From Planctomycetaceae bacterium (lineage in GTDB: Bacteria; Planctomycetota; Phycisphaerae; SM23-33): 64,000 nt of DNA. Position 1 is the first letter of the stretch. Each line of letters opens with the position of its first letter. The stretch lies in contig JBDKTA010000008.1 of the NCBI GenBank assembly GCA_039680605.1, positions 62,001-126,000 on the forward strand, written 5' to 3'. The notes under the pieces are model-generated. The model searched no databases. It had not been told where the DNA came from and worked only from the letters and a program-made list of their open reading frames with translations. Of the stretch, positions 21,005-41,191 are shown piece by piece. Both the position numbers and the translations under genes were made by a program.

Positions 21005-21717
21005 AGTGGGCCGCCGTCATCTCGTCGGATGATGCGCACCTGCTGGGCAGCCTGCGCCTGCGCGGCGGCATTGAGGTCTGCGTCCAGGATCAGCGGATCT
21101 GGCTGAAAGGGGAGGTCCTCGACGACGCGACGGACTTGGCGCTGCGCAAGCTCTCCGGGGCCCTGCGTTACACCCTTACCGCCGATGGGCAACTGCGTCC
21201 CGCAGGCGCCCGCGTCCCGACGGGCATGCTGCCCGCGGAGGGTTGGGTGATCCTGCAGCAGTTCCTCCGCCCCGCGGCGCCGCTGGCGGCCCTGGCGGGG
21301 CAACTGCCTGCCCCTGCGGCTCTGCGGCTGGTGCGAACGTCGCAACCGCGCCCGGCAAACGCGATGCTGGTGGACCTGGAGGCCTGGGCGGCCTATGCGG
21401 CCGGCGCGGCCGAAATCCGCCTGCGGGATCTATCATTCGCCGTCTCGCGCGATTCGCAGGTAATTGTGCGCGGCTGGCCCCTGCCGCCGATCCGCGGGAT
21501 GCTGCTGGCTGAAGAAGCGGGGGTGGCCCTGCCCTGCGGATACCAGTGGCAGCCGGTGATCGACGCCGAGTCGGTTCGCGCCGTCTTCAAAGCCGGCCCG
21601 CAGGACCTGGTTATCCTCTGGCCCGACGGCACCAGCGCGCTGCTGGATCAGCAGTGTTTCGTGGCCGCCTCGCGAAGCGCCGCGCGCCTGACGGCGCAGG
21701 AGATGGCCGATGGCTAA
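21001..21717 (+). CDS. Ternary-system accessory protein, unknown domain
   Basis: A 238-residue protein starting at ATG 21001, within the ATGA overlap with the MoxR stop; longer frames upstream are shadows of the ATPase gene. The sequence (MKWAAVISSDDAHLLGSLRLRGGIEVCVQDQRIWLKG...) is rich in predicted beta strands and contains no known catalytic motif. It overlaps the next gene by 8 bases. By position it corresponds to one of the small conserved proteins of MoxR/vWA/propeller systems. Confidence 0.75.
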   Translation: MKWAAVISSDDAHLLGSLRLRGGIEVCVQDQRIWLKGEVLDDATDLALRKLSGALRYTLTADGQLRPAGARVPTGMLPAEGWVILQQFLRPAAPLAALAGQLPAPAALRLVRTSQPRPANAMLVDLEAWAAYAAGAAEIRLRDLSFAVSRDSQVIVRGWPLPPIRGMLLAEEAGVALPCGYQWQPVIDAESVRAVFKAGPQDLVILWPDGTSALLDQQCFVAASRSAARLTAQEMADG

Positions 21718-24520: not shown

Positions 24521-27315
24521 TTACAATGACGCTACATCTCGTGCATGCCGGCGACGCGGTGCGGGGGACGTGCGCGTATTTTCTGCCCGGCGGCGATGCT
24601 CAGCGGTGGCTTGACACCATTGCGTCTTGGGGCATGGCGATGAAGGACCTGCGCCTCTATGTGCTGGCGAATTCTGTCAGCGACCGCACGCCCATCGGCG
24701 CCTTGGCGGCCGGGCCGGGCATACCGCCGGACATGGATTCCCCCGCGGCCGTCGCGTACGGCTGTGTCGGCGGCAAGCTCTACGTGCCGGTAGATGCCGT
24801 GATCCATCCGCAAGTATCTGACGTGGAGATTGTCTCGCTTCTGCCGGGGCACTTGTACGTGTTGCATCCGTCGGCGCCGCTGGCGGGTTTCCAGAGCGAC
24901 GACGCCGTCGCCGCGCATCAGTTGGTGGCTCCGCCGTGCGTCGACTCGCGTCCGTGGGACCGCGCCGTGCCGGGCCTGGCCGCGCCGAGGCTGCGCAGCG
25001 TGACGGGGCCGCAACTCGATGAACTCGGCGATATCATCGAGGCGGGGCGGGAGGATATCTCCAGCGATTCCCCCGGCCAGATCGCCCAACTGCCCGACGA
25101 TCCCGCCCGAGGGATCTTGGGACGGGCGGCGGCCAGGGCCGCCTCGGCAGGGCTGGGGGCGATTGCGGCGGGTCTGGCGGCCCTGCGCCGAGGCGCCAGG
25201 GCCAGCGGCGGCCAGGCTGCAGCCGCCGGCGCCGGCGGCCGCCCCGGAGGCGATGGCCCAGGCTGGTTGGACAAAATGGCCCAATGGGCGGCGCAGAAAG
25301 CCTCAACCGCAAGCCAGCGCCTCATGGCGGCGCGGTTTAAGGAACTCGCGAGGCTGATGCGGCTGATGGAATCTGACCCCGACGCGGGCCTGAGATATGC
25401 CTTGCCTCTGGCGGGGTCGACCGCCCATCGCGGCGTGGCGCGGCCGGGATCACGCCTGGGGCCTCGCTCGACGGACTTCAACCTCAGCCGGCTTGGCGGC
25501 GGCGAAGCGGCCGACTTCTGGGACATGCCTTACGAATACCAGGCCCAGCTCATGCGGCAGTACCGCCAGGCCGCCGACCGCGAGATCGCCCTGGGCCGCT
25601 TCCGCCGCGCAGCCTATATCTACGCTGTTCTCCTCGGCGACCACCACAGCGCCGCCAATGTGCTCAAGCAGGGCAGGCACTTCCGCGAAGCCGCCGCCGT
25701 CTTCAGGGATCATCTCAAGAATCCTCTCGAGGCCGCCCGATGCCTCGAAAGCGGCGGACTGCTGCTGGAGGCCATCGCGATTTTTCAGGAGCACAAACAC
25801 TTCGAGAAGGTGGGCGATCTCTACACGCTTCTCGACCGCCCGGAAGATGCCGGCGAGGCATTCCGCAAAGCCGTGAACCAGTTGCTGCACGAGGGCAACA
25901 GTCTCGCTGCCGCCGCCTTGCTCGAGACCAAGCTCAAGGCGCCTCAAGAAGCGCTGGACATTCTGGCCCAGGCCTGGCCGGCGACGAAGCAGGCGGGGGC
26001 TTGCCTGCAGGAGCGGGTCTCGCTGCTGGGGCGGCTGGGCCGACATGGCGACGCACAGTCGCTGGTGCGAACACTGCAATCGCAGACGCTGCCTCGCCAC
26101 GCCGTCACGCTGGTCGAGTCGTTGGCCGCCGCCGCGCAAGGGTATCCCGATCATCCTACACGGCGCGTGATCGGCGACGCCGTTCGCGTGGTGGCCGGCA
26201 TGACGCTCGACGGCGCCAGCCCGTCGGCGGCCGTCGCTATCGGCCGAACACTGGTGCGTCTGTGCCCGCACGACCGGCTGCTCAGCCGCGACGTCGACCG
26301 CTACTGCGGCGCCAAATCGAAGCTGCATAGCGCCCAGGCGGCGCCGGTTCGCCCCAGCGTGTCCGCGGGCAAGGCGGCATTGGTGCGAACGCTGCAGTTG
26401 CCGGTTGAAGAAGCCAAGGCGATCGAGTGGAGCGTTTTTGCCGCGGCCAACGGTTTTCTCTACGCCGCCGGCTACGACAGCCAGCACCTGCCGTGCATCC
26501 TGGCCCACGACTGGCAGGCCGGCCACAACATCCTGCGCCTGAGGCAGGTTTGTGCCAGTCACGAGCCATTGCTGCTGGCCGTCGACCCCAACAGCCCCAG
26601 CCACGTGGTTGTCGCCAGCCCGGGCGGGCGGCGCCTTCATGAGCGGCAAGCCGTTCTGCCCAGTGGGCGGCGGTTCCTGGGCGGGTATCCTGCATGGGCC
26701 CCTGAGAACGTTGTGGCGATAGCCTATGACAACGTGGGCCTTCGGGTGCTCTGCCGGGTCAATGAACAGCTTCAGTTGGACAGCTACTGCCGCGACGGGC
26801 GACTGCAGCACTCGCATTTTGTGGGCCTGGCGGCAGGCATGGCGGCGGCTGTGCCGATGTTCGTGCCCTGCAGCAACGGCGTGTGGTTCGCCATCGGCAA
26901 CCAGCTCTACTGGGACAGTCAAAAGTTCCGCCGCCAAGGGGACCAACTGGAGACGCTCGAATTTGAAACACCGATCGTCAGCATGGCGGCCGCAGCGCCG
27001 TACTCGCCTGTCCGCATCGTCGTGACGCTGGAGGAAGGGGCGCGAGTCATCTTCACCGACGCCGACTGGCCGCAACAGGTGAAGTTCGGCGAAGGCATGC
27101 TCGACCCACTGGCGATCTTCACCAGCAGCGGCATGGTGGTAGTCGCCAGTCGCGGGCAGGGGGGCATTTATGACATTCGCAAGAGCGGCCTCAAGTACAT
27201 CGGCGGCTTTGACGTGCCCGATGAACGCCCACTGGCCGTCCTCAACACCGGCAACGCCGGCGAGTTTGCCGTCGTGACCGAATCGTTCAAGGTGCGCATC
27301 TTTCAGCTGCCGTGA
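24517..27315 (+). CDS. Helical-solenoid plus beta-propeller protein of the ternary system
   Basis: A 932-residue protein coupled to the previous gene by an ATGA overlap. The N-terminal domain (about 1-160) is beta-rich. A low-complexity Gly/Ala linker (about 205-260) leads to TPR-like helical repeats (YRQAADREIALGRFRRAAYIYAVLLGDHHSAANVL, HFREAAAVFRDHLKNPLEAARCLESGG; about 345-480). A C-terminal beta-propeller runs from about 640. In the published picture of these systems the propeller/solenoid proteins sense or bind a target while MoxR and vWA act on it. The gene ends convergently with kptA, overlapping it by 13 bases. Confidence 0.78.
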   Translation: MITMTLHLVHAGDAVRGTCAYFLPGGDAQRWLDTIASWGMAMKDLRLYVLANSVSDRTPIGALAAGPGIPPDMDSPAAVAYGCVGGKLYVPVDAVIHPQVSDVEIVSLLPGHLYVLHPSAPLAGFQSDDAVAAHQLVAPPCVDSRPWDRAVPGLAAPRLRSVTGPQLDELGDIIEAGREDISSDSPGQIAQLPDDPARGILGRAAARAASAGLGAIAAGLAALRRGARASGGQAAAAGAGGRPGGDGPGWLDKMAQWAAQKASTASQRLMAARFKELARLMRLMESDPDAGLRYALPLAGSTAHRGVARPGSRLGPRSTDFNLSRLGGGEAADFWDMPYEYQAQLMRQYRQAADREIALGRFRRAAYIYAVLLGDHHSAANVLKQGRHFREAAAVFRDHLKNPLEAARCLESGGLLLEAIAIFQEHKHFEKVGDLYTLLDRPEDAGEAFRKAVNQLLHEGNSLAAAALLETKLKAPQEALDILAQAWPATKQAGACLQERVSLLGRLGRHGDAQSLVRTLQSQTLPRHAVTLVESLAAAAQGYPDHPTRRVIGDAVRVVAGMTLDGASPSAAVAIGRTLVRLCPHDRLLSRDVDRYCGAKSKLHSAQAAPVRPSVSAGKAALVRTLQLPVEEAKAIEWSVFAAANGFLYAAGYDSQHLPCILAHDWQAGHNILRLRQVCASHEPLLLAVDPNSPSHVVVASPGGRRLHERQAVLPSGRRFLGGYPAWAPENVVAIAYDNVGLRVLCRVNEQLQLDSYCRDGRLQHSHFVGLAAGMAAAVPMFVPCSNGVWFAIGNQLYWDSQKFRRQGDQLETLEFETPIVSMAAAAPYSPVRIVVTLEEGARVIFTDADWPQQVKFGEGMLDPLAIFTSSGMVVVASRGQGGIYDIRKSGLKYIGGFDVPDERPLAVLNTGNAGEFAVVTESFKVRIFQLP

Positions 27316-27878
27316 TCTTGGGCGGCGGGGCGGGGAAAGTCCAGGTATTGCGGTGGGACGTGACCTGTCAGCCATACGCCATTGGTGGAAATGAAAAACG
27401 CGTGCCCATCGGCGTGCATGCGGCCGGCTTGCACCGCCAGCACGACCGGTTTGCCATATCGCTGCCCGACGCTGGCGGCTGTCCGCTCGTCGGCCGACAG
27501 ATGCACGTGATGCCGCTGACCCTTGCGAAGCCCCTCGACGCGGATGGCTGAAAGGTTCCGCTCTGCCGTGCCGTGATAGAGCGTCTCCGGCGGGTCGGCT
27601 GGCGAATAGCCCAGTTCCACCTCGACGGAGTGCCCCTGGCTGGCGCGGATTCGCAGGCCGTCGGAGCTGAACTCGAACCGCTTCTTGTCGTTGGTCGCCA
27701 CCACCTCGGCAAGTTGCTCCGGCGTGATCGCCCGGCCGGCTAGGCGGCAGCCTTCCAGCAGCGCGGCCACATCAACCCAGCCGGCGTGGTCGAGGGTCAA
27801 CCCCGCCGCCTGCGGCTGATGCCTGAGCACCAGGCTGAGGAACTTGCTGATTCGTACTCGTTCTTTATCACTCAACAT
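27303..27878 (-). CDS. kptA: RNA 2'-phosphotransferase (Tpt1/KptA family)
   Basis: A 191-residue cytoplasmic enzyme. The family transfers an internal RNA 2'-phosphate to NAD+, releasing nicotinamide and ADP-ribose 1'',2''-cyclic phosphate. Seen are the N-terminal winged-helix part (ISKFLSLVLRHQPQAAGLTLDHAGWVDVAALL) and the ADP-ribosyltransferase-like part with LYHGTAERNLSAIRVEGL, RHHVHLSAD and a C-terminal VWLTGHVPPQYL. It is the last gene of the NAD/ADP-ribose operon and the only NAD-consuming transferase in it. The start ATG has GGAAAG upstream. Confidence 0.95.
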   Translation of the reverse strand: MLSDKERVRISKFLSLVLRHQPQAAGLTLDHAGWVDVAALLEGCRLAGRAITPEQLAEVVATNDKKRFEFSSDGLRIRASQGHSVEVELGYSPADPPETLYHGTAERNLSAIRVEGLRKGQRHHVHLSADERTAASVGQRYGKPVVLAVQAGRMHADGHAFFISTNGVWLTGHVPPQYLDFPRPAAQDHGS

Positions 27879-27919: not shown

Positions 27920-28432
27920 TTATTGGCAAAAAGGGATCGCCGCATAGACCTTCAGGTCGACCAGGATTCCCTCCGCCGTCCGCCTGCGTAGCCAGTCGAG
28001 CAGTTGCTTCAGCGGCACGTGGTGGACGGTGATATCTTCGTGCTCGTCTCCGCCGCCCGCGGCGGTCCTGGTCAGCCCTCGCGCCAGCATCAGGGTCATC
28101 GTCTCGTTGGACATTCCCGCCGAGGCCGCGCCACAGGCCACCGGCTCGATGCTCGCGGCCACGTATCCCGTCTCTTCCATCAGTTCGCGATGCGCCGCGG
28201 TTTCGAGCGATTCATCTCTGCCGGCGTCGGTGTCGCCGACGAGCCCGGCCGGCAGCTCGATCACACGAGCCTGCAGCGGCGGGCGAAACTGCTCGACAAG
28301 CACCAACTCTCCCTCATCGGTCACGGCAATGATCCCGACGATCCCGCTGATATTGCACCGCTCGATGCATTCATATCGCCCCCGCACCACCGCCCGAAGA
28401 AACCGCCCTTGCCATACAATCTGTCTGTCCAC
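27920..28432 (-). CDS. NUDIX hydrolase, ADP-ribose pyrophosphatase-like
   Basis: A 170-residue enzyme. I take GTG 28432 as start because a perfect AGGAGG (28439-28444) lies 6 bases before it; an upstream in-frame TTG at 28450 lacks one. The sequence (IIAVTDEGELVLVEQFRPPLQARVIELPAGLVGD) is typical of ADP-ribose pyrophosphatases. The Nudix box ends in a clean RELMEETGY with E-x7-REL, though the first glycine position is altered. It would split ADP-ribose into AMP and ribose 5-phosphate, clearing the product of neighbouring glycohydrolases. Confidence 0.9.
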   Translation of the reverse strand: MDRQIVWQGRFLRAVVRGRYECIERCNISGIVGIIAVTDEGELVLVEQFRPPLQARVIELPAGLVGDTDAGRDESLETAAHRELMEETGYVAASIEPVACGAASAGMSNETMTLMLARGLTRTAAGGGDEHEDITVHHVPLKQLLDWLRRRTAEGILVDLKVYAAIPFCQ

Positions 28433-28438
28433 GCGATA

Positions 28439-28444
28439 CCTCCT
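28439..28444 (-). promoter_or_regulatory. Ribosome binding site that fixes the NUDIX gene start
   Basis: AGGAGG on the minus strand, 6 bases before GTG 28432. Confidence 0.8.
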
Positions 28445-28446
28445 TC

Positions 28447-29508
28447 TCAATACGGCGGCAGCAGCCGTCGCAGGCCGTGCGCCAGAACAATCATCAGCAA
28501 CAACATGTTTCGCAGCAGCACGCCCGGCCAGAAGAGCCGCGGCGCATTGGCCGCCTTGCCCTCGGCCAACTGCCGCGCCAGATTCTTAATCCAATCAACC
28601 GTCCGCGGCCACTCGAACAAACCTTTAATCCACTGAGCAGGAATTCCTTCCAGCCCCGCCGATGCGCCCGCCAGAGCGCCGACAATCGCGCCGACGGTAT
28701 CGCTGTCGCCGCCAAGCAGCACGGCCTCCTCCACGCTGCGGCGAAAGTCGCCGCGATATCGCAGCCAGCAGAAGATCGCTGCCGGTACGGTGTGGTTGAT
28801 ATAGCCGCTGATGCCTATGCCCATGCCCATCTCGGTTGCGAACTCGGCTGGCGACGCGCCCGCCGCCAACTGCTGCCGGGCCGCAGCCAAGTACTGTTTC
28901 AACTGCTGCCCTTGGATCTGGGGCAGAACTTGCTCGAAGAAGTTCTCAGCATCTATTTCGCCCGCCGCCGCGTGTGCGGCGGCCGCGGCGATCACGTACG
29001 CGCCTTCTTCGGCTCGCGAGTCTGTGTGCGTCAGCCGCGTGGATGCTCGCGCCATCTCGCGCATCAGGTCCGGCCGGTCGGCCAACACCGCCCCGATAAT
29101 CGGCGCTCGCATAGCCGGGCCATTGCCCGCCGAGCACACTCCGCTACGGTTGGCGGGCCAGCCTGACAGGAGCTTCATGCACGCCTTAGCCGTGCCCATG
29201 CCGATCCCGGGCGGTAGCGACAGGAACCATCCCCGCAGCCGCCAGGCCAACGATCGCGCGAACTTCGCCGGGTTATCGCTATGTGCCAGCAAGGCCTGCG
29301 CCGTCATGCAGGCATGTTCCGTGTCGTCGCTGAACATCCCGCGCCCAAAGAGCAGCCGGTGCTCCAGCGGCGCCGGCCCAAACAGCCGCATCGCCCGCCG
29401 CCGTGACAGTCCCTCCCTCGGCAGGCCGATAGCGTCCCCGATCGCCGTGCCGACCAGAAGGCCCGCCAGTCCGGCGTACGTCACGGGATGCATTTCGAAT
29501 GAGTTCAT
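28447..29508 (-). CDS. ADP-ribosylglycohydrolase with C-terminal membrane tail
   Basis: A 353-residue DraG/ARH-family protein, expected to remove ADP-ribose from proteins or other targets. The metal-binding motifs are [11 protein letters not shown] (residues about 19-29), [12 protein letters not shown] (about 57-68), and the C-terminal [17 protein letters not shown]. The last 30 residues form a hydrophobic helix with basic ends ([29 protein letters not shown]), so the enzyme may be tail-anchored, which is unusual. It overlaps the preceding glycohydrolase gene by 4 bases. Confidence 0.93.
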
Positions 29509-30437
29509 TGTGCCTCACACCGGCCCGTCAACAACTTCTTGGCGAAGGACTCGATCATTTCGTGCTGGGCAAGCTTGTAACGCCAGCTTTGCGGGATATC
29601 CGAGTAACCGTAGTACGCGCCGGCAAGTTGGCCGTAGATCGCTCCGGTGGTGTCGGCATCGTCGCCAAGATTGACGGCCGCCAGGCACCCGTCGCGGAAG
29701 TTCGTCGAGTGATCGAACGCCCACAAGGCCGCTTCCATGGCGTCGACCACGTACCCGGTGCCGCGAATGGCCGGCGGCTGCTTGTGCTTGAACGAGCCCG
29801 CGGCCACCGCATCCACCTCTGGGCACAGCGGGTGGGTCTGCCAATAGTCGGCGGCCGGACAGTATCGCTGCGACAGAAGCGTCTGCTTGTCCACGCCATT
29901 CAGCGCCGCCACGATCAACCCGCCGTAGTACCGGCACGCGTCCACAGCCGTCGTCGCGCCATGCGTAGTGCGAGAGCTATCGCCGGATCGCTCTATCGCC
30001 ACAGCCGCATCGCCGGCGAAGAACATCGGCACCGGGGCCAATCGCATCAATGATCCATTACCGGCCGCGTGCGGATCAGTCGAACCGCAATACGGTTCTC
30101 CGCTTCGCATGAACTGCTGCAGCGCGGCGCGGGTTGTGCCGCCGATGTCAAAGCACCGTCCGGTGCAACTGAATTGCCCGTGCTTGTACCATTGCACATA
30201 GCGTCGAAGCTGGTCGGCGGCGTCGAAGCCCTTCATCTCGACGAGGCTATCGGCCAGACACAGCGCCATGGACGTGTCATCAGTCCACTGCCCGGGCTTG
30301 AGCCCGAAAGGCCCGCCGCCGATCATGTCCTTGATCGGTGAGAAACTCCCAGGCGGCTGAAACTCCAGCGCTGTTCCGACCGCGTCTCCGACAGCCAAGC
30401 CAATCAATGCCCCAAGATAACGTTCAGTCAGCGTCAT
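29505..30437 (-). CDS. ADP-ribosylglycohydrolase
   Basis: A 310-residue DraG/ARH-family protein; ATG 30437 has AGGGAG upstream, and longer frames are shadows. Motifs: [14 protein letters not shown] near the N-terminus, [31 protein letters not shown] and the C-terminal [19 protein letters not shown], a complete Mg/Mn-binding set. It is a second, clearly different paralogue next to the tail-anchored one, and it is soluble. It overlaps genes on both sides by 4 bases. Two glycohydrolases in one operon suggest two kinds of ADP-ribosylated target or two locations. Confidence 0.94.
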
Positions 30438-30835
30438 GACAGGCTCCCTGCGCGAGCAGCGCGATGAATCCTCGTCCACCCGATGCCCCGGTAGTTCCGG
30501 CGGGCGATCGTGACGGCCAGGATCGTCAGAGTCGCCGGCATCTGGAGCACAATCGCGCGCCACCAGACCAGCGATTCAAACCACAGCAGGGCGCACGCGT
30601 TGACCATGAACAGCATGGCCCAGATGATCTCGAACCGTCTCCCGACGCGAAACACGTTGCAGAACAGAAAGAAATGGCCCAGGACAACCGGCAGGAACAA
30701 ACCGACTGGACCCAGCGCTGACCACAGAACCCATGTCAAGGGTACTGCGGCCGCCACGGCCACCGCATCCTGCAGCGAGAACCTGAAGCCTTTGTGCCGT
30801 TGTGCATTCCACCATGGCAGTGTGTCTTCAGACAT
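30434..30835 (-). CDS. Small integral membrane protein, unknown
   Basis: A 133-residue protein with about four hydrophobic segments ([72 protein letters not shown]) and basic ends. I do not recognise a family. It is locked into the NAD/ADP-ribose operon by an 8-base overlap upstream and a 4-base overlap downstream, so it is co-translated with its neighbours. Confidence 0.8.
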
Positions 30836-31724
30836 CGAACACCTTCCTTTGCACGTTGCCCATTCGGTCGAGTGTGACGGTCAACTGTCCAAAGCGTCCA
30901 CCGAAGTTCTGCGTCCGCAGGTCGCGGCAGATCAGCTTGAGCCCTTCGCTGCACGGTTGGGCCTCAACGACGTGATATTCGCTCGACAGGCTCCGCATCA
31001 TCACGTACTCCGGGACGCTGGCCAGCAGCGGGGCATACTGCTCGTCCATCGTGAGGCACCGGCCCCGCGTACGGCGCGTCCCGTTGATTGCGTTGATGAG
31101 ATACAGTTCCGCGAGGCCGCCGGCATCGACGTGGCAACCGTAGAAATGCCACCATGAGCCCGGGACAAGGCTGTCGCCGGGGGTGATCGCGAGTTCTCGT
31201 GCTCGCCGTGCCAGCACCGCCCGGAGCGTCCACCATCCGGCAATGAATATGGCGAAAATGACCGCCGGTAAGGCGGAAAACCCTTCATGCAAGGCGCTGT
31301 AAATACACGCCGTGCCCAAGGTAGTCGTGACGGCCACCGTGACGGCGTCGGTGAAAAACATCCAGTTCAGGGCCACACGCCGGCGCACAAACGGCCACAT
31401 GATCGTCGTGCCATACGTGTTGGCAAAGTCCATCAGGGAATGAATCATCATGCCCGCCCCCAGGGCGGCCGGCGCCCACAACTCCGGCCAGCCCATCCAA
31501 TGCCACGCGCCCGTCATCGCCAGAGTCATAACCGCGATGCACGGCAGCGAATGTGTGAGTGTCTGGTGAAAGCGCAGGAACGCCTTTTTGCCCCAGCATC
31601 GCGACAGGACGTCCAGGTCGGGAAGAAGCGATCCGAATACGATGGCGGCAGCGGTCAGCGGCCGCTGAACAGCCAGAGGCGTCGCAATAGTTACGCCCGT
31701 CATGACATGTGTAATGATGTTCAT
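30828..31724 (-). CDS. YdjM-like membrane-bound predicted metal-dependent hydrolase
   Basis: A 298-residue protein. The N-terminal half matches the YdjM/DUF457 family: ITHVMTG, a conserved SLLPDLD, HQTLTHSLPC and HSLMDFANTYG supply His/Asp residues for a metal site, and hydrophobic helices place it in the inner membrane. The C-terminal 110 residues are soluble (MDEQYAPLLASVPEYVMM...) with no known motif. The substrate is unknown; some family members hydrolyse phospholipids or phosphate esters. It follows the vault-like gene after 36 bases. Confidence 0.82.
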   Translation of the reverse strand: MNIITHVMTGVTIATPLAVQRPLTAAAIVFGSLLPDLDVLSRCWGKKAFLRFHQTLTHSLPCIAVMTLAMTGAWHWMGWPELWAPAALGAGMMIHSLMDFANTYGTTIMWPFVRRRVALNWMFFTDAVTVAVTTTLGTACIYSALHEGFSALPAVIFAIFIAGWWTLRAVLARRARELAITPGDSLVPGSWWHFYGCHVDAGGLAELYLINAINGTRRTRGRCLTMDEQYAPLLASVPEYVMMRSLSSEYHVVEAQPCSEGLKLICRDLRTQNFGGRFGQLTVTLDRMGNVQRKVFDV

Positions 31725-31760: not shown

Positions 31761-32960
31761 CTAATTCTCATGCAGGTGCAGCTGCGTGCGCTTTTCGCCT
31801 TCGACCCGGATCAGGCGGTCGGGGTTCTGGTACTGGGCGACGAGGTATTTCGTCAGGTCCACCTGCAGGGCCTGCATGGCTCGCAGCAGGTCGACGCGCT
31901 GGGCGTCGGCGGCCTTGCGGTGCTCCAGGTCGATCGCGTTGAGGCGCTGCGTGGCGGCGGCTTCGTTTTCCTGCTCCTGCGTGCGGGCTCGGAGCTTTTC
32001 ATCGTGCCCCAGGCGCTCCAGGGCGATGCGGTGCTGGGCCTGGGCCTGCTCCATCTGACGTTGCTGGTCGGCCCGGGCGGCCTCGCGGGCCAGGCGCAGG
32101 TCCGCCAGTTCCTGGGCCTGTCGCTCGGTCTCGGCTTCGAGCTTGAGCTTGGTGCGGGCCTGGATCGCCGCGTCATGCATGGCCTGGAGCTTCTCGCCGG
32201 CGAGGTACCCGCGATAGACCACCTTGCTGATCCGGTAGCCGATGCGGGTGGCCCGCTGGGTGAGGTTGGCGTAGGCCGACAGGTCGTTGAGCTTCTCGGT
32301 CTGGCTCTTGAACTCCTCGAACGTCCGCCGCCCCACGTAGTCGATCACGTCGGCCGATACCGCGTTGACGAAATCGGCGATCGGGTCGTGGGTCTGGTCG
32401 AGCATCCGCTCGATGTCGGCCAGTTCGAAGAAGATCATCAGCTCGATCACCAGCAGCGCGTCGTCGGCCGTGCGCACCTCGGGCACGTCGAAGTACATCT
32501 GGTCGGGGATGGTCCAGAGCGTCCTGAACTTGAGGCCGTGGGGAACCTTGCGGTGCGGGTTTCGCGGGTCGGCCCCGTGCCACGAGAACTCGTGCAGCCA
32601 TTCCTTCTCGCTGGGGACGAATACCGCCGGCCCGTGCACGACGCGCCGCAGTACCTTGCCGTCCTCGCGTGCGTAAACGACGACGGCCTCATGGGCGTTG
32701 ATCGCCAGGGCCTCTTCGACAGTGATCTTCTCGTGCAGCACCGGATCCCAGAAGATCGACGCCGGCCCGCGCACGTTCTGGCAGTGCCCGTCGCAATAGC
32801 GAACGGCCAGGTACTGGCTGGCTTCGGCGCTGAACAGCTGCAGCCGCTGGGCCGTCTGGCGAAACAGAAAGACCCGCCGCGGCCCATCCACCACCCGCAT
32901 CCGCCCGCTCTTATCCCAAACCGCAACCCGCTCTCCCTGTCTGATGGTGATGAGTTTCAT
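31761..32960 (-). CDS. Compact major-vault-protein-like protein
   Basis: A 399-residue protein; ATG 32960 has AGGAG upstream. The architecture matches major vault protein in order. Vault-type beta repeats come first (MRVVDGPRRVFLF about 21-33, NVRGPASIFWDP 62-73, RRVVHGPAVFVPSEKEW 105-121). Next is a shoulder (SPFH/band-7-like) domain at about 145-255 (MYFDVPEVRTADDALLVIELMIFFEL, then IADFVNAVSADVIDYVGRRTFEEFK). A long charged coiled-coil cap helix runs from about 255 to 370. Animal MVP has about nine repeats; here only about three are seen. It may form a smaller cage or ring. The function is unknown, but its neighbours are all NAD/ADP-ribose genes. Confidence 0.82.
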   Translation of the reverse strand: MKLITIRQGERVAVWDKSGRMRVVDGPRRVFLFRQTAQRLQLFSAEASQYLAVRYCDGHCQNVRGPASIFWDPVLHEKITVEEALAINAHEAVVVYAREDGKVLRRVVHGPAVFVPSEKEWLHEFSWHGADPRNPHRKVPHGLKFRTLWTIPDQMYFDVPEVRTADDALLVIELMIFFELADIERMLDQTHDPIADFVNAVSADVIDYVGRRTFEEFKSQTEKLNDLSAYANLTQRATRIGYRISKVVYRGYLAGEKLQAMHDAAIQARTKLKLEAETERQAQELADLRLAREAARADQQRQMEQAQAQHRIALERLGHDEKLRARTQEQENEAAATQRLNAIDLEHRKAADAQRVDLLRAMQALQVDLTKYLVAQYQNPDRLIRVEGEKRTQLHLHEN

Positions 32961-32973
32961 GGTCGTTCTCCTG

Positions 32974-33978
32974 TCATGGCGTATGCATTGGAGTTTGCCC
33001 GGTCGGCACGGCATCGATGGCGGCGACAGCTTGTCGCAGACGTTCGTCGTGCGAACCGGTCAACCGCAGCCAAGGCCGGCCTGTGGCGGTCAGTTCCGCA
33101 ACGAAAGTGTCCTGCATTGCCTGTCGCACGTGCTGGCCGTCGCGCGTGCCGTCCTGAACCCAGGGAATGTCCGTCTCGCACAGCAGGTAAAGCGCGTAGA
33201 AGCCCTGTCGCTCAGCCGCGAGGCGCTCGACGGCGGGGCTGCGGCAGTCCTGCATGTATCGCCGGTGCCAGATGGCGGTGGCGAAGGCGTCGGTATCGAC
33301 GATCAGAAGGCGATTGGCTTGGCGGGCCAGCAGATCCTCGCGCCGCGCGTGCTCGCGGGCGATATGCTCGAACTCGACCGAGTCCCACTGCTCCAGCGTG
33401 CCGTTGGCGAGTTTGACGTCGCAATACTCGCGGCCGTATTCGGCCATCCAAACCGTGTGGTAGTGATCGGCCAACGCCGCGGCGAGGGTGGTCTTGCCGG
33501 TGGATTCCGCGCCGACCAGACAAACGCGCCGCATATACCACGCTCGGACGCACGGCGCCAGATAGTCCAGGTGCGCCAGCGGGTCGTTGCGGATCATCGT
33601 GGCCGAGCAGGGCACCTGCCCGCGCTGCGGATCCACGTTGACGTGGACGGCCCCAAGGCAGCGGGCGTAGGTGTCGCCATAGGCCTCAGAGGAAAAGACC
33701 GCATCGGGGGCGAGGCCCAGAATCTGCCGTGTGTACGCCGCCCAGCCCGCTGAATCATCATCGGCCGGCACGTCCAGCACCGAAAGGACGTGAGCAGTTG
33801 GGCACATCTCCCGCAACCACTCGACGCGCCGGGCGATGGGGATCGTCTGGGAGGCGTTGAAGCACGCCAGCACGTAGACCTCGTCGCACTTCGCCAGGGC
33901 CGTCTCGATCAGCAACTGGTGCCCGCGGTGGGGCGGGTAGAACTTGCCCGCGATCACGCCTGTGCGGAACGGTTTCAT
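32974..33978 (-). CDS. nadR: NadR-type NMN adenylyltransferase / ribosylnicotinamide kinase
   Basis: A 334-residue bifunctional enzyme that phosphorylates nicotinamide riboside to NMN and adenylates NMN to NAD+. The N-terminal adenylyltransferase has GKFYPPHRGHQ (about residues 11-21) and SATMIRNDPL; the C-terminal kinase has the P-loop GAESTGKTTLA. The N-terminal helix-turn-helix of enteric NadR is absent, so it is an enzyme only; regulation falls to NrtR. The start ATG overlaps the pnuC stop by 4 bases. The ribosylnicotinamide transporter next to it supplies the substrate. Confidence 0.95.
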   Translation of the reverse strand: MKPFRTGVIAGKFYPPHRGHQLLIETALAKCDEVYVLACFNASQTIPIARRVEWLREMCPTAHVLSVLDVPADDDSAGWAAYTRQILGLAPDAVFSSEAYGDTYARCLGAVHVNVDPQRGQVPCSATMIRNDPLAHLDYLAPCVRAWYMRRVCLVGAESTGKTTLAAALADHYHTVWMAEYGREYCDVKLANGTLEQWDSVEFEHIAREHARREDLLARQANRLLIVDTDAFATAIWHRRYMQDCRSPAVERLAAERQGFYALYLLCETDIPWVQDGTRDGQHVRQAMQDTFVAELTATGRPWLRLTGSHDERLRQAVAAIDAVPTGQTPMHTP

Positions 33979-34712
33979 GCTTCGCCTCCCGCCGCGGGCT
34001 GCAGGCTGGCGGCGGCCAGCGTGCGGCGCCACTGCCACAAGCCGGCCACGCACAGGCCCAGAAACAGCACGTACAGCCCGGCCGTCAGGTAGATCTGCCG
34101 ATCGATGTAGAGCTGGATCGAGATTAAATCGACAAGGATCCAGACCCACCAGTGCTCGAAGCGCTTGCGGTTGAGCAGGTATTGAGCGGCGATGCTCAGG
34201 ACCGCAGTCGCGGCGTCGCGCAGCGGCGCGGCGTCGCCCAGATACGCCAGCAGCACCGACATGCCATACGTGAGGGCGGCCGCGAGTGGCGGCAGCACAA
34301 TCCACTCCCAGCGACGGGCGCGAGTGATGGTCAGTCGCGTGCGGCTGGGCCCGCCGTAGAGCCAGCTCCACCAGCCGATCACTCCCAGGACAAAGAAGAC
34401 GACCTGGAGGCTCATGTCCGCGTACAGCCGCGCGCCCAGGAACACGACGAACAGGAAGACGTTGTTGCCAAGCCCGACCGGGAAGTTGGCGATCTTGGCA
34501 TCGACTGTGAGCAACACGCAGAACGCGCCGGTGGCAAAACCCAACGCTTCGGTCAGTGACGTCGGAATCCACTGCCGCCACGCCGCCACCACCAGCACCG
34601 CCGAGGCGACAGTGCAGAGGCCATACTTCAGCCAGCCCACGACTGTGCCTCGTGAAGCAGCAGGCGCCTGCACTGGCGAGATCGCTTCCTGTTCAATTGA
34701 CGAGAGGCTCAT
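33975..34712 (-). CDS. pnuC: Nicotinamide riboside transporter PnuC
   Basis: A 245-residue inner-membrane protein with about seven hydrophobic helices. The family signature is visible: IGWWSWLYGG, and the C-terminal AQYLLNRKRFEHWWVWILVDLISIQLYIDR. It imports nicotinamide riboside by facilitated diffusion, trapped by the NadR kinase encoded directly downstream (4-base overlap). It also overlaps the TIGR02452 gene by 4 bases. AAGGAAG precedes the ATG. Confidence 0.95.
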   Translation of the reverse strand: MSLSSIEQEAISPVQAPAASRGTVVGWLKYGLCTVASAVLVVAAWRQWIPTSLTEALGFATGAFCVLLTVDAKIANFPVGLGNNVFLFVVFLGARLYADMSLQVVFFVLGVIGWWSWLYGGPSRTRLTITRARRWEWIVLPPLAAALTYGMSVLLAYLGDAAPLRDAATAVLSIAAQYLLNRKRFEHWWVWILVDLISIQLYIDRQIYLTAGLYVLFLGLCVAGLWQWRRTLAAASLQPAAGGEA

Positions 34713-35566
34713 GGTCTTCCTTCTTGTTGTTCGGGGGCAAGTTGCCGGGCAAAGACCTCCCGGGTGTGGCCGATGGTGTCGAAGATTGCAAAGGTGGTTG
34801 TTTTGACGCGTGTGCCCCAGGTGATAAGGCTTTGTTCAAACGCCTTGGCCACGACGGCCGGATCATTGCCAAATACGCCGCAGCCCCACGCGCCAAGCAC
34901 CAGATGGCTGTAGCCGCGCGCAACCGCAAGAGCCAGCACGTGGTCGACGCGTTGGCGCAGGACTCCTTCCACATCCGCAATCTGGAGGCTGCCCGCTCGC
35001 ATCGCCCCGATGTTCGGGGCCGGCATGGTTACAAAGCTTGTGACAAATGGCTCCTCGATCAGCTGGTCCTCATCGTCGCGGAACACCGGCACCGATGGGC
35101 TGTAGATGGCATGGTCGGTATAAAGCAACGTGCCGCAGGTGCGGTTGGCTTGGTAATACTCCGGGCACTTCAGCAAACACGGATACAGCCCTGAAGCTCT
35201 GGCCAGGCTTTCCTCCTGGGCTTGTGAGCCACCGAGAAATCCGCCGCCGGGATTCTTGGCCGAGGCGAAGTTCAACGCCAGCACACGACTGCCCGGCACG
35301 CAAGATAACCGCCGCGCCGCCGCCAGTGTGGTTTCCGCGGTAACCTCGATCATCGTAGGGTGATCGGCTTGCGGCACCGCCTGTGCAGCGGCATGGATCT
35401 CTGCCCAGTTCTGCGGGCGGAGCAACTCGGTACCCTGTTGGCTCTCCTCGATCATCGGTCCAAGATCGACTCGTCGTCCGAGCGGACTGAGGTAAAAGCC
35501 TTTCTCTACGATCGCCAGCGTTTCCTGCGCGATGGCCGACCTGTCATTGCGATTGGCCGCTTTCAT
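34709..35566 (-). CDS. TIGR02452-family (microbial PARG-like) protein
   Basis: A 285-residue soluble protein; ATG 35566 has GGAGGT 6 bases upstream. The poly(ADP-ribose) glycohydrolase signature GGG-x6-QEE is present in NPGGGFLGGSQAQEESLARAS (about 114-134), with a macro-domain-like C-terminal part (SHLVLGAWGCGVFGNDPAVVAKAFEQSL). Family members bind or hydrolyse ADP-ribose polymers or terminal ADP-ribose. The start overlaps the stop of the NADAR gene by one base (TGATG), so the two are coupled. Confidence 0.93.
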   Translation of the reverse strand: MKAANRNDRSAIAQETLAIVEKGFYLSPLGRRVDLGPMIEESQQGTELLRPQNWAEIHAAAQAVPQADHPTMIEVTAETTLAAARRLSCVPGSRVLALNFASAKNPGGGFLGGSQAQEESLARASGLYPCLLKCPEYYQANRTCGTLLYTDHAIYSPSVPVFRDDEDQLIEEPFVTSFVTMPAPNIGAMRAGSLQIADVEGVLRQRVDHVLALAVARGYSHLVLGAWGCGVFGNDPAVVAKAFEQSLITWGTRVKTTTFAIFDTIGHTREVFARQLAPEQQEGRP

Positions 35567-36039
35567 CAGGGCACCTCCGTCGCATCGACGCCACATGTAC
35601 CCGCGCGCCGCAGTTCGTCGCGCACCTGCATCAGCAGCTCACCCAGGCGGTTGCGCCCGCTGCCGTCGCCGCCATCGCCCCAGTAACGATCCTTCTTAGC
35701 ACGCTCGACGATCCGTGCCTCACCCGTCGCTAACAGCATCTCGCGCAGGTCGGGGTGCTGGGAGAACTTTGCCCGCAGGGCCGCCAGCATTACGGCGTCC
35801 TTGACCTGCTCCCAGTCCGGTCTGATTGGGACACGGCGGCTGCGGCCCAGACGCGCGGCAATCATCGGCGAGGGCGTCTGGCGTATCCTCACGGCATGCT
35901 CGGTACGTGGGAACTTTTGAGCCTGAAAGTAATGCTCGCTTGTTGGCCATATCTGCCCGTCCAGTTCGATTGGGTATGCGGCGAAGTTCGACAAATACCC
36001 GTTCTCGCTCTTGGTGCTGTAGAAGATGATTTCGTTCAC
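35566..36039 (-). CDS. NADAR/YbiA-family protein
   Basis: A 157-residue protein of the YbiA/NADAR fold (NGYLSNFAAYPIELDGQIWPTSEHYFQAQKF...DRYWGDGGDGSGRNRLGELLMQVRDEL), including the conserved W-P-T-S-E-H-Y-F and D-x-x-W-G-G-N-x-LG elements. Family members cleave N-glycosidic bonds: E. coli YbiA acts on early riboflavin intermediates, while relatives in NAD-linked operons are predicted or shown to remove ADP-ribose. Given the operon, an ADP-ribose substrate is likelier. It starts at GTG 36039, 2 bases after pncA. Confidence 0.93.
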   Translation of the reverse strand: MNEIIFYSTKSENGYLSNFAAYPIELDGQIWPTSEHYFQAQKFPRTEHAVRIRQTPSPMIAARLGRSRRVPIRPDWEQVKDAVMLAALRAKFSQHPDLREMLLATGEARIVERAKKDRYWGDGGDGSGRNRLGELLMQVRDELRRAGTCGVDATEVP

Positions 36040-36041
36040 GG

Positions 36042-36713
36042 TTACGCTGCCTTTCTGGTTTCGAGGAGGTGGCGGCTGGTCAGGATGATGGCGCCGGCGG
36101 TGGCCATTTCTTCGATGGCGCGGGCGGCGACGCCTTCTTTAACGTTCACGCCGCGGCAGCCGTCGATCACCACGTGCGTGCGGTAGCCCAGGCCCAGGGC
36201 ATCCAGGGCCGTGAACTTCACGCAGTAGTCCGTCGCCAGACCCATCACGAACACCTCGCCCACGCCGCGGGCGGCCAAGTACTCGCCCAGCGCCGTGGCC
36301 TTGCGGTGGGCGTTGTCGTAGAACGCGCTGTAGCTGTCGATGAGCGCCTCGGTGCCCTTGCGGATGACCTTGTCGATGCCGGCCACATTCAGCCCGGCCG
36401 CCAGCTCAGCACCAGGCGTCCCCTGCACGCAGTGGTCCGGCCAGAGGATCTGCTCCAGCCCGGCCAGTTCCGCCATCTCGCCGACCTTGCGGCCGTGAGT
36501 GCTTGCGAAAGAGCCATGGGCGGGCGGGTGCCAGTCCTGCGTGGCCACGACCACGTCAAACAGGTCCATCAGTCGGTTGGCCACGCCGACGACCTCGTCG
36601 CCTGCGGGCACGGGCAGCGCTCCGTCGGGGCAGAAGTCGCTCTGGATGTCCACCAGGATCAGGGCCCGTCGCGTGTTCTTCGTGTTGTTCATGTTGTTTG
36701 TAGTGTTGTTCAT
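36042..36713 (-). CDS. pncA: Nicotinamidase
   Basis: A 223-residue isochorismatase-fold enzyme that converts nicotinamide to nicotinate. The catalytic triad can be placed: Asp in ILVDIQSDFCPDGALPV, Lys in VIRKGTE and Cys in GLATDYCVKFTA; metal-binding D-x-H is in TQDWHPPAHGSF. The N-terminus is an unusual Asn/Thr run (MNNTTNNMNNTKNT) from repeated aac-act codons, perhaps a recent repeat expansion. It recycles the nicotinamide set free by KptA-type reactions. It lies 46 bases after nrtR. Confidence 0.96.
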   Translation of the reverse strand: MNNTTNNMNNTKNTRRALILVDIQSDFCPDGALPVPAGDEVVGVANRLMDLFDVVVATQDWHPPAHGSFASTHGRKVGEMAELAGLEQILWPDHCVQGTPGAELAAGLNVAGIDKVIRKGTEALIDSYSAFYDNAHRKATALGEYLAARGVGEVFVMGLATDYCVKFTALDALGLGYRTHVVIDGCRGVNVKEGVAARAIEEMATAGAIILTSRHLLETRKAA

Positions 36714-36759: not shown

Positions 36760-37449
36760 TCAGATCTCGAAGTTAAAGCCTTGCTTGACCAGGGCGTCGT
36801 ATCGCTTCTTGTCGAAGCGGTACAACTGGGCCGCCCGGTGGGCCACGTCGGTCTCGACCTCGTCGAGCCCCTGCAGAATCCCCATGGCCAGGATCTTCTT
36901 GCGGAAGTTGCGCTTGTCCAGGGGGCGGTCGAGCACCTTCTCGTACATCCGCTGGAGCTGCGTCAGCGTGAACTTGCCCGGCAGCAACTCAAAGCCGATG
37001 GGCTGGTAGCGAACCTTGCCCTGCAGGCGATCATGGGCAACGTCGAGGATGCGCTGATGGTCGAACGCCAGCGTCGGCGCGTCCTCCAGGGCAAACCAGG
37101 CCGCGTTGCGGGCGTCGGAGGCGCCCTTGACGGCGAAGTCGCCCAGCTTGACCAGGGCGTAGTACGCTACCGTGACGACGCGCCCGCGGGGATCGCGGCC
37201 GACATCGCCGAAGGTGTAGAGCTGCTCGAGAAAAACGTTTGCCACACCCGCCTCTTCCGCCAGTTCGCGTCGGGCGGCGTCCTCCAGCGACTCGTCCATC
37301 CGCACGAACCCGCCGGGCAGGGCCCATTTGCCTGCGAAGGGTTCCAGGTCGCGCTGGATCAGCAGGACCTTGAGGTCTTCGTCGTCAAGCCCGAAGACCA
37401 CACAATCCACCGTCAGAGCCGGCCGCGGATATTCGTACGTGTGTGCCAT
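36760..37449 (-). CDS. nrtR: NrtR-type regulator (Nudix domain plus winged helix)
   Basis: A 229-residue protein. Its N-terminal Nudix domain (about 10-145) has a complete Nudix box, [23 protein letters not shown], and the C-terminal part is a winged-helix DNA-binding domain ([28 protein letters not shown]). NrtR proteins repress NAD genes and respond to ADP-ribose. The box here looks intact, so catalytic activity may remain, unlike many regulators of the family. It is first gene of the second transcription unit, with paired operators directly upstream. AAAGGAA precedes the ATG. Confidence 0.93.
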
Positions 37450-37464: not shown

Positions 37465-37510
37465 GTGTCACTTATACACTATGATTAGTGTAGGTAGGAC
37501 ACTATGTCAA
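37465..37510 (-). promoter_or_regulatory. nrtR promoter with two candidate NrtR operators
   Basis: On the minus strand, TTGACA (37505-37510), a 17-base spacer and TAATCA (37482-37487) form the promoter. Two GTGT-N7-ACAC boxes overlap it: one at 37488-37502 inside the spacer and one at 37465-37479 at the expected start point. Their centres are 23 bases apart, about two helical turns, so two dimers could sit side by side. The second box shares extra flanking bases (C before, T after) with the box at pncB. Confidence 0.75.
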
Positions 37511-37567
37511 CCAGGAAATGCAAAAATATTATCTGCGACGGCAATGATCATTGCGGCGGCAGCATCT

Positions 37568-39637
37568 TTAAGGCATGTGGGGCATGTTGGAGGGCGAGAC
37601 AGGCTGTTGCGCTGCCGAACGTCCTTGAGTGCTGAGGGAACTCGGCGCCGCCTCTGTGGTCATGACAGAAACTCGCTGCCGCAACTCGGCCAGCTCTCTT
37701 TCGAAGCCGCCGGAGAGGATGGGGAAGCGGCACCAGGTTTTGGGGTCGAGGTTTTTGTCGTCGAGATGAAAGCTGGGGGCATAGCGTTCGCGCTTCCACT
37801 GGTTGCGGCACCACAGGCGGAAGAAGCGATCGATCCACGCGGCCAACTGCCCGCGGCCGTGCTGGGGGAACTCTGCCAGCATCAATTCGAAGACCTCGAC
37901 GGGGGTCTTCTTGTCGCGAATGGCGGCCCGTTCGATGGCGTCGAGCAGGTCGTAGGGCATGAGGTCGGCTTCGTCGGTCTGAGCCTGTTCGCTGGGGCGA
38001 AGCTCCGCTGTAGGCTGCTGGACATTCACCGCGTGCAACTGCGGGATCGGGCCCAGGCCGTGCGGGCCGGCGGCCTCGAGCCACCGCAGATAGCGGCGGA
38101 TGAACGCCTTGTCGATCCCGGCGATGGGGGATAGCCCGCCGCAGGTGTCGCCGTCCATCGTGGCGTACCCGACGGCCGCCTCGCTGCGATTGCTCGTGGC
38201 CAGCAGCAGGGCGCTTCGCAGGTTCGCGATCATCCACACCCCCGGCGCCCGCACGCGCGCCTGGATGTTCTGCAGGGCGATGTCGTCGCTCTGCCAGGCG
38301 AGCCTGCGGCCCAGAGCGCCCTCGACGGCCGCCACGTAGCCTTTGAAGAACGGATCGACGTCCAGCTCGATGAACTCTGCCCCGACGGCCTCGGCGACCT
38401 GGCGGGCGGCGCTGCGCGTGGTGTCGGAGCTGTTGGCTGTGGACTGGTAGACGCATGTCAGCAGTGCCCGCACGATCTGCTGCTCGCTGCTGCCTTGGAG
38501 GCCGAAATACCCCAGCCGCTTCTTGAATGCTTCCACGCCGAGGGCGGCACACGCTCTGCGGACCATCATCGCGACCAGGCACGTCACCAGTGACGAGTCC
38601 GCACCGCCGCTGAGCGACACGACGAATCCGCGCGAGCGGCTCTTGCGCAGATAGTCGAACAGCCCCAATGTCATCGCCCGCGTGAACTCTTCTTCCTGCA
38701 CGCTGGGCCCGTACTCCCAGCCGGGCTGATCGGCCGCGGGGCGGCAGAGCGGCCCGGCGGCGTAGTCGAAGGGCGCGCGGATGCACGCGCCGTCGCCGGC
38801 GGCCGGCGTGAAGCTGCCTGTACGCGACTGCGCCAGGCGCGTGGCGTCGATATCCACCACGGCCGAGGTCACGGCGAAGCTCTCGAAGCCAAAGCGCGGC
38901 CCCGCGGCGGCCATCGCGCCGCCGGTGGCGATCAGGGCCCCGCCGTCGTAGATGGCGCGCCCGGCCTCGTTGCCCAGCAGGTTGCTGTAGACGTATGTGC
39001 AGCCGAACGCGCGGCTGCCCTCGAGCACGAAGCGCTTGCGCACGGCGATCTTCCCGAAGGCGAAGTGGCTGGCTGAGGGGTTCAGGATGATGTCGACGCC
39101 ATGCTGGGCAAGATCGCCGCCGGGCCGCTTGGCCACCCAGGCATCTTCGCAGATCTCAAACCCGATCCGCACGCCGCCGATATCAAAGAACAAATCGCCC
39201 ATGCGGTAAGTGCGGCCGTCGAGCTCCACCTCGGCGGCCACGCCGGCCGGCCAGGGCTTGAACCATCGCGGCTCGTAGTGCAGCCCCTCGCCGGCCAGAT
39301 GCTGCTTGGCGACAAAGCCCAGGACGTTGCCGTCGGCCACGAGACAGGCTGTATTGAACAAGGCATTGTGATACAGCACCGGCAGGCCCAGTGAGACGAT
39401 GATGCCGCGCGTGGCGGGCAATATCTCCTGCAGCACTTGGCGGGCCATCCGCCGCAGCCCCGGCGAGGCGAACGCGTCCTCGCAGCCATAACCGCAGAGG
39501 CACATCTCCGGCAGACAGAGGATCTGCGCCCCGTCAGCCCTGGCGGCCTCGATCGCCCCGAGAATAGCCGCCTTATTGCCGTCCCAATCCAGCGGCGTAG
39601 TGTTGACGATCCCGGCGGCGACCTTGATGAGTTTCAT
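37568..39637 (-). CDS. nadE: Glutamine-dependent NAD+ synthetase
   Basis: A 689-residue enzyme that amidates nicotinate adenine dinucleotide to NAD+. The N-terminal glutaminase (nitrilase fold) has the Glu-Lys-Cys triad in LPEMCLCGYGCED, VAKQHLAGEG and GFEICEDAWV; the C-terminal synthetase has the PP-loop SLSGGADSS and LLATSNRSEAAVGYATMDGD. Length is normal for the two-domain form. It lies 20 bases after pncB and shares its promoter. It completes the nicotinamide salvage route, though a dedicated NadD is not in the window. Confidence 0.96.
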   Translation of the reverse strand: MKLIKVAAGIVNTTPLDWDGNKAAILGAIEAARADGAQILCLPEMCLCGYGCEDAFASPGLRRMARQVLQEILPATRGIIVSLGLPVLYHNALFNTACLVADGNVLGFVAKQHLAGEGLHYEPRWFKPWPAGVAAEVELDGRTYRMGDLFFDIGGVRIGFEICEDAWVAKRPGGDLAQHGVDIILNPSASHFAFGKIAVRKRFVLEGSRAFGCTYVYSNLLGNEAGRAIYDGGALIATGGAMAAAGPRFGFESFAVTSAVVDIDATRLAQSRTGSFTPAAGDGACIRAPFDYAAGPLCRPAADQPGWEYGPSVQEEEFTRAMTLGLFDYLRKSRSRGFVVSLSGGADSSLVTCLVAMMVRRACAALGVEAFKKRLGYFGLQGSSEQQIVRALLTCVYQSTANSSDTTRSAARQVAEAVGAEFIELDVDPFFKGYVAAVEGALGRRLAWQSDDIALQNIQARVRAPGVWMIANLRSALLLATSNRSEAAVGYATMDGDTCGGLSPIAGIDKAFIRRYLRWLEAAGPHGLGPIPQLHAVNVQQPTAELRPSEQAQTDEADLMPYDLLDAIERAAIRDKKTPVEVFELMLAEFPQHGRGQLAAWIDRFFRLWCRNQWKRERYAPSFHLDDKNLDPKTWCRFPILSGGFERELAELRQRVSVMTTEAAPSSLSTQGRSAAQQPVSPSNMPHMP

Positions 39638-39657
39638 GATTTCTTCCCGGCGAGATT

Positions 39658-41133
39658 CTAAGCGTTCAGGCCCCGTGCCGCGAGAATCAACCGCGTCTTG
39701 AGGTCGTGCAGGTTCTTCTCAAGACCGGCCGGGTATTCGTGCGGATTGAGGAATCGCTTGATGCCTTCGTGCAGGGCGGCAAGTTGCTCCTGCGTGCGGC
39801 TACGGACGTCGGCCAGGGCGGGCAGGTCATAGACGCATCGGCCGCCGCGAAAGACCGGCACCAGCAGGTCCTGCCATGGCGTATCTTGCGGGACGATCTT
39901 CTGCCGCGTGGGATCCTTCACGTCGACAATGGTGGTCTGGCCCTGCGGCAGACCCGTCAGTTCATCGAAGATCATGTCGGCCAGGAACTGCCCGTCATGG
40001 CGGAAGCGGCGCACCTGCAGCATGCCGGGCGTTGAAGTCTTGATGACCTGCTCGGAGAGCTTGACCTTGTGCTGCCACGGCTGGCCGGGGCGTTGGATAG
40101 CGGATAGCTTGTACACGCCGCCAAGGGCCGGCTCGTCGAAGGCCGTCGCCAGGCGCGTGCCGACCGCCCAGACCGAAATCTTGGCGTCCTGCTGCTTGAG
40201 GCTGGCGATGATGTGTTCGTCCAGATCGTTGCTGGCGACGATGAAGGCGCTGCCGAAGCCGGCCGCGTCAAGCATCTTGCGGGCCTCGATGCTCAGGTAC
40301 GCCAGGTCGCCGCTGTCCAGGCGGATGCCCAGCATCTCCCCGCCGCGCTGCCGCAGCCGCCGACCGGCCTCGATGGCCTTGCGCACGCCTTCCAGCGTGT
40401 CATAGGTGTCGACCAGAAAGATGCAGTTGTTGGGCATGGCCTGGGCATAGGCGTCGAAGGCCTCCAGTTCATCGTCGAAGCACATCACCCAGCTATGGGC
40501 GTGCGTGCCCTTGACGGGCATGCCGTACATCCGCCCGGCCAGCACGTTGGAGGTGGCGCTGCACCCGCCGACGTAGGCAGCTCGGCTGGCGGCCAGCGAG
40601 CCGTCGATCCCCTGAGCCCGCCGCAGGCCGAACTCCAGCACCGGCTCGCCCCGGGCGGCCTGGCAGATTCGCGCGGCCTTAGTGGCCACCAGCGTCTGGA
40701 AGTTGATCAGGTTCAGCAGCGGCGTCTCCAGCAGTTGGCACTGAAGCAGCGGGCCTCGCACCCGCACCAGCGGCTCGTGCGGGAAGACGGCTGTGCCCTC
40801 GGGCACGGCGTCAACGTCGCATGAGAACTCAATGGCGGCCAGGTAGTCCAGGAACGCCGGCTCAAAGAGCCCCTTGGCGTCGCTGCCCTTCAGAGTGCCC
40901 AGATACGCCAGATCGTCGCCATCGTAGCGGAAGGCCTTGAGGAAGTGGACGACGCTCTCCAGGCCGTTGACGATCGTGTAGCCGCCCTTGAACGGGTGCT
41001 TGCGAAACACCAGATGGAAGACGGCCTGGTCGTCGGTGTGGCCCAACTTCCAGTATCCATACGCCATCGTGAGCTGATACAGGTCCGTCAGCAGCGCCAA
41101 GGAGGGCTTGTAGATTGTCGTCGCGGCGTTCAT
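39658..41133 (-). CDS. pncB: Nicotinate phosphoribosyltransferase
   Basis: A 491-residue enzyme that joins nicotinate to PRPP to give nicotinate mononucleotide. Family motifs: [15 protein letters not shown] at the N-terminus, [38 protein letters not shown] and [13 protein letters not shown]. It is first gene of the pncB-nadE unit, with its promoter covered by a GTGT-N7-ACAC box. AAAGGAA precedes the ATG. Confidence 0.96.
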
Positions 41134-41156
41134 GGGATCATTCCTTTAATGCCTTC

Positions 41157-41191
41157 GTGTTAATAATACACTTAGTTTTCCGTCGCGTCAA
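41157..41191 (-). promoter_or_regulatory. pncB promoter with candidate NrtR operator over the -10
   Basis: On the minus strand, TTGACG (41186-41191), a 17-base spacer and TATTAT (41163-41168) make a near-consensus promoter. The box GTGTATTATTAACAC (41157-41171) contains the entire -10 hexamer, the layout expected for direct repression. It has the same GTGT-N7-ACAC form as the two boxes at nrtR. Confidence 0.8.

Follow-up and report, generated by a model that had tools for sequence, protein, structure and literature searches.

The three GTGT-N7-ACAC boxes described here are very probably operators of the NrtR repressor encoded close to them, and sequence comparison points to a classical NrtR regulon, induced by ADP-ribose, which would join NAD salvage with the reversal of ADP-ribosylation. 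They are situated in a 64 kb stretch of planctomycete DNA (the window, i.e. the whole stretch that was analyzed), exactly where the initial annotation had put them, before the genes pncB and nadE and before a 13-gene unit that begins with nrtR (Table 1). Their coding-strand (minus) sequences are TAGTGTCCTACCTACACTA and TAGTGTATAAGTGACACGA upstream of nrtR and AAGTGTATTATTAACACGA upstream of pncB.

Table 1. Predicted operators, promoter-like sequences and genes of the two transcription units (positions in the window)
Feature	Position	Strand	Remark
NrtR box (predicted), nrtR promoter	37465..37479	-	start-point side; minus strand GTGTATAAGTGACAC
NrtR box (predicted), nrtR promoter	37488..37502	-	within -35/-10 spacer; minus strand GTGTCCTACCTACAC
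NrtR box (predicted), pncB promoter	41157..41171	-	containing -10; minus strand GTGTATTATTAACAC
pncB promoter-like sequence	41163..41191	-	TTGACG-17-TATTAT, consensus match
nrtR promoter-like sequence	37481..37510	-	TTGACA-18-AATCAT, consensus match
pncB	39658..41133	-	nicotinate phosphoribosyltransferase
nadE	37568..39637	-	glutamine-dependent NAD synthetase, 20 bp behind pncB
nrtR	36760..37449	-	Nudix + NrtR winged-helix repressor, gene 1 of 13-gene unit
pncA	36042..36713	-	nicotinamidase
NADAR	35566..36039	-	NADAR domain protein
PARG	34709..35596	-	microbial type (PF10021 / TIGR02452)
pnuC type	33975..34712	-	nicotinamide riboside transporter
nadR type	32974..33978	-	NMN adenylyltransferase / ribosylnicotinamide kinase
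SPFH	31761..33014	-	SPFH/Band 7 protein
YdjM type	30828..31724	-	membrane protein
small protein	30434..30835	-	without Pfam match; adjoins SPFH in two relatives
ARH	29505..30563	-	ADP-ribosylglycohydrolase, start codon uncertain
ARH, second copy	28447..29508	-	ADP-ribosylglycohydrolase
NUDIX	27920..28450	-	hydrolase nearest to ADP-ribose / ADP-compound pyrophosphatases
Tpt1/KptA	27303..27878	-	RNA 2'-phosphotransferase, last gene of 13-gene unit

The placement of the boxes on promoter elements is as first described: the -10 of pncB lies inside its box, and of the two nrtR boxes one occupies the spacer and the other, just downstream of the -10, the expected start point. These two promoters, at nrtR and pncB, were the only ones on the minus strand that a promoter scan returned between 36600 and 41300. 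One point of wording in the initial annotation has to be put right: NrtR is not encoded between the boxes. The interval from one group of boxes to the other holds pncB-nadE, and nrtR follows directly downstream of its own pair; all of these genes are in minus-strand orientation. The 13-gene unit stands as an arrangement, with co-directional, mostly overlapping genes and largest gaps of 46 and 41 bp, and we infer that all of its genes are co-transcribed. At its end this unit faces two large convergent genes on the plus strand, which belong to a MoxR-vWA-beta-propeller ternary system (bpX0/bpX1, bpX3; window 21710-27315) and overlap the Tpt1 gene by 13 bp.

From this layout and from the comparisons given below we infer that NrtR binds the boxes and represses both promoters, with ADP-ribose as inducer. 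An apo-NrtR dimer would bind each GTGT-N7-ACAC and block RNA polymerase; at pncB it would cover the -10, and at nrtR two dimers about two helical turns apart would lie over spacer and start point. When NAD is cleaved, ADP-ribose would build up and bind the Nudix domain, and NrtR would leave both promoters. Its release would turn on pncB-nadE for NAD salvage together with the 13-gene unit, in which pncA, pnuC and nadR would serve further salvage, NADAR, PARG and the two ARH would remove ADP-ribose from macromolecules and the NUDIX hydrolase would dispose of it.

The window NrtR is composed of an N-terminal Nudix domain and a C-terminal NrtR winged helix (PF00293 and PF21906, both above cut-off). 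Its best solved match by score, with 200 bits versus 127 bits for SoNrtR, is another member of the NrtR family, AraR of Bacteroides thetaiotaomicron (BtAraR, BT0354, PMC4666351), which is approximately 43% identical over the aligned part. In the BtAraR co-crystal the bound strand is GTGT-TACTTTT-ACAC and the DNA is contacted by Asp178, Lys179, Arg180, Asn181, Arg183, Lys184, Lys204 and Arg205 (PMC4666351). The recognition helix, DKRNFRK, is identical in the window NrtR, almost all orthologs with more than 60% identity share it, and in the wing, HR, the arginine is kept and histidine replaces Lys204. Since the same helix and the same GTGT-N7-ACAC occur in the BtAraR co-crystal, the predicted operator and its reading head agree with a solved complex, and the motif, which had been called inferred in the initial annotation, is now backed by a structure in which an identical helix contacts it. 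Tandem sites are also alike, 24 bp apart in BtAraR and 23 bp here. However, BtAraR senses L-arabinose and controls arabinose genes, whereas the targets here are NAD and ADP-ribose genes; its pocket residue Gly89 is arginine in the window protein and its Nudix signature is broken.

ADP-ribose is the likely effector of the window NrtR because of its family, its context and one residue of the pocket. Among the residues with which SoNrtR contacts ADP-ribose, Arg41 and Arg98 are kept in the window protein, while Asn43 and Lys76 are not; the equivalent of Arg98 is the arginine in RDPRG, which is also kept in relatives and is glycine in the arabinose-binding BtAraR. The NCBIfam model NF050029 (ADPR-responsive repressor) gave 185 bits, below its curated cut-off of 400, but it is an equivalog model of one narrow group and does not define the NrtR family. 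As the best-scoring solved relative is an arabinose regulator, sequence alone leaves the ligand unsettled, and the boxes could be NrtR operators whose effector is NAD, an AraR-like pentose or an ADP-ribose derivative, for example the cyclic phosphate from Tpt1, instead of free ADP-ribose. In addition to the BtAraR score and the two pocket residues that were not kept, this would be in accordance with NdnR of Corynebacterium, which responds to NAD (PMC4666351, PMC6800001), and with the presence of Tpt1 in the 13-gene unit. We nevertheless regard a different effector as unlikely, as all unit genes of recognised role handle NAD or ADP-ribose and none of them pentoses, and as Arg98 is retained.

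Orthologs of the window NrtR with 62-78% identity are found in Planctomycetota and, in named records, in myxobacteria, Nitrospirae, Verrucomicrobia, Lentisphaerae and Acaryochloris. We scanned the upstream regions of 46 nrtR orthologs with no motif assumed, using 256 four-base half-sites and 17 spacers (0-16). GTGT-N7-ACAC ranked first with 54 sites in 35 of the 46 regions, compared with a mean of 0.12 and a maximum of 2 regions in dinucleotide shuffles, and the runners-up were its own flanks (AGTG-N9, TAGT-N11). In a wider set the box was present in 42 of 61 distinct nrtR upstream regions. Nineteen neighboring pairs were 22 or 23 bp apart (12 pairs at 23, the spacing of the two nrtR boxes in the window, and 7 at 22), and the seven central bases were variable. 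Upstream of pncB it was found in 28 of 33 relatives, typically as part of a symmetric TTAGTGT...ACACTAA in which the -10 forms the A+T-rich centre. Conservation, proposed at the outset as a check, therefore holds for nrtR and pncB across Planctomycetota, and for nrtR also in myxobacteria, Nitrospirae, Verrucomicrobia and cyanobacteria; in Acaryochloris (L058 and L084) ARH and nrtR are divergent genes with the boxes between them. Boxes follow promoters, as in most of the 11 boxless regions among the 46 nrtR is directly behind pncB or nadE. In the boxless loci that were readable (L158, L160, L170, L173, L062) the box generally precedes pncB instead, and one further boxless region (L050) has two boxes with one mismatch each. 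In the window's own family a close NrtR ortholog was present in only one of 34 other genomes, yet orthologs of at least 70% identity occur in other phyla, which suggests that the nrtR-pncB module has spread laterally.

The boxes could also be read by another regulator of the same promoters, with NrtR reading a different sequence, and it is true that NrtR motifs vary widely across lineages (PMC5343134, PMC4666351). This is very improbable, since in several phyla the box stands upstream of the nrtR gene, since it agrees with the operator in the solved complex of a family member whose recognition helix is identical, and since its extended form is found in genomes with NrtR but not in those without. 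The extended motif TAGTGTN7ACACTA occurred 46 times, in 26 of 40 planctomycete genomes with NrtR and in none of 40 without it, while the same pattern read backwards gave 17 versus 3; the control genomes belong to different lineages, which limits this comparison. The type of pncB seen here was present in 28 of the 40 NrtR-positive genomes and in one of the 40 NrtR-negative ones, so nrtR and this pncB type travel together. Because the controls mostly lack this pncB type, just one NrtR-less pncB could be checked, and it had no box. The proposal in the initial annotation, repression by NrtR over both promoters that links pncB-nadE to the 13-gene unit, is thus supported by box conservation, by the contrast between genomes with and without NrtR and by the helix shared with BtAraR.

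It is hardly credible that the boxes are due to chance or that the nrtR operator is instead the inner palindrome TACACTA-N4-TAGTGTA, since shuffled ortholog regions gave at most 2 regions with a box against the 35 observed, and the palindrome, although perfect in the window and recurring as ACAC-N8-GTGT in 11 regions, is a consequence of box pairs spaced by 22-23 bp and does not occur where the box is single, as at nearly all pncB promoters. We thus rejected it as a by-product of box spacing. Chance was further ruled out by the counts: the window has four matches to GTGT-N7-ACAC against 0.48 expected from shuffles, none of which reached four, and the genome (5,230,656 bp) has 12 exact sites, so that 0.006 are expected in the 3.7 kb with the three boxes from the rate of the other genome sites (Poisson P(>=3) ~3e-8). 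The fourth match in the window (45392-45406), inside a menaquinone-biosynthesis (PF02621) coding sequence, is probably a chance one. As for further targets in the same genome, the next-best sites that were examined (e.g. G000:C31:11474, C4:12156, C70:31501) are in open reading frames or without convincing promoter context, and inside the 13-gene unit there are one-mismatch matches only, all within coding sequence. The de novo NAD genes nadA and nadC are present on other contigs, and no exact site was found on those contigs, from which it would seem that the boxes of this genome are restricted to salvage and ADP-ribose genes.

The control described here is a well-supported further example of the known NrtR kind, not a new kind. 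It shares with the NrtR regulons of NAD metabolism (Rodionov et al. 2008, as cited in PMC5343134; SoNrtR, MsNrtR, SsNrtR) a repressor of Nudix and winged-helix domains whose palindromic operators stand on the promoters of its own gene and of NAD genes, and targets of the pncB, nadE, pncA, pnuC and nadR types. It differs in the addition of NADAR, PARG, ARH, SPFH and Tpt1 genes, in an intact Nudix signature and in an operator unlike the published Mycobacterium (GTTTTCGA-N7-TCGAAAAC) and Streptococcus boxes (PMC6800001). A second kind of known system, the ARG-centred one (Iyer et al. 2022, PMC9503650), is reported in planctomycetes. There a Nudix-HTH repressor, for which ADP-ribose is the presumed signal, or a WYL regulator controls ADP-ribosylglycohydrolase (ARG) genes, in some cases accompanied by NADAR or macro genes; phosphatases and chaperones are partners, and an ADP-ribosyltransferase is not linked. 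The 13-gene unit likewise contains ARG and Nudix-HTH; no rhodanese-type phosphatase or chaperone partner was recognised in it, and its Tpt1 is a NAD-using enzyme. In contrast to those systems, which were proposed from gene neighborhood without operators, the present one is coupled to NAD salvage. What is added to the neighborhood-based proposal (PMC9503650) is the operators, the targets in trans and the coupling of ADP-ribose reversal to NAD salvage; whether free ADP-ribose is the signal on which cells activate ADP-ribosylation reversal thereby becomes directly testable.

In published NrtR proteins the Nudix signature and the enzyme activity are mostly lost (PMC4666351, PMC6800001, PMC12735969). 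Decay of the signature is usual in the family but does not define it. Here the signature G-x5-E-x7-RE-U-x-EE-x-G-U is intact in the window NrtR and in 60 of 70 aligned sequences, and because it is complete this clade may still hydrolyse ADP-ribose, its own predicted inducer. As a tentative and rather doubtful extension, NrtR of this clade could be repressor and enzyme at once, and the switch would then reset itself; the regulon under it, laterally spread, would restore NAD and, following an attack, clear protein, DNA and RNA of ADP-ribose.

That the ADP-ribose genes are members of the regulon and not passengers is argued most strongly by the agreement of boxes between genomes. Relatives have these boxes, frequently paired at 23 bp, upstream of genes at separate loci whose families are represented in the 13-gene unit: an SPFH protein resembling the window's (L178, L180, L182, L192), NADAR (L189, L190), a different Band 7 protein (L189, L190, L191), a protein with a macro domain (L185) and an ARH (L166). 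NADAR, SPFH, macro and ARH genes are in this way tied to the NAD-salvage circuit by conserved DNA sites, beyond gene neighborhood. For NrtR of Planctomycetota and of several other phyla the motif is a concrete operator that can be put to the test, and it could be used to find further members.

Boxes were also detected near genes of other families. A TAGTGTN7ACACTA box was found at the gene of a radical SAM protein (~455 aa) in several species of one planctomycete genus (L177 5234, L179 5157, L181 5088). In myxobacteria boxes paired at 22 bp stand upstream of the gene directly behind nrtR (L061 10725/10747; L052 10758/10780; L053 10746/10768), which in L061 encodes a PP2C-type phosphatase (Pfam), and in L049 and L061 a second pair (L061 13795/13817) precedes the gene of a 356-aa protein without confident family. 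Finally, in two related genomes a TAGTGTN7ACACTA box is situated near the gene of a Crp-like regulator (L183 4973, L184 5045), which is a possible further target of NrtR.
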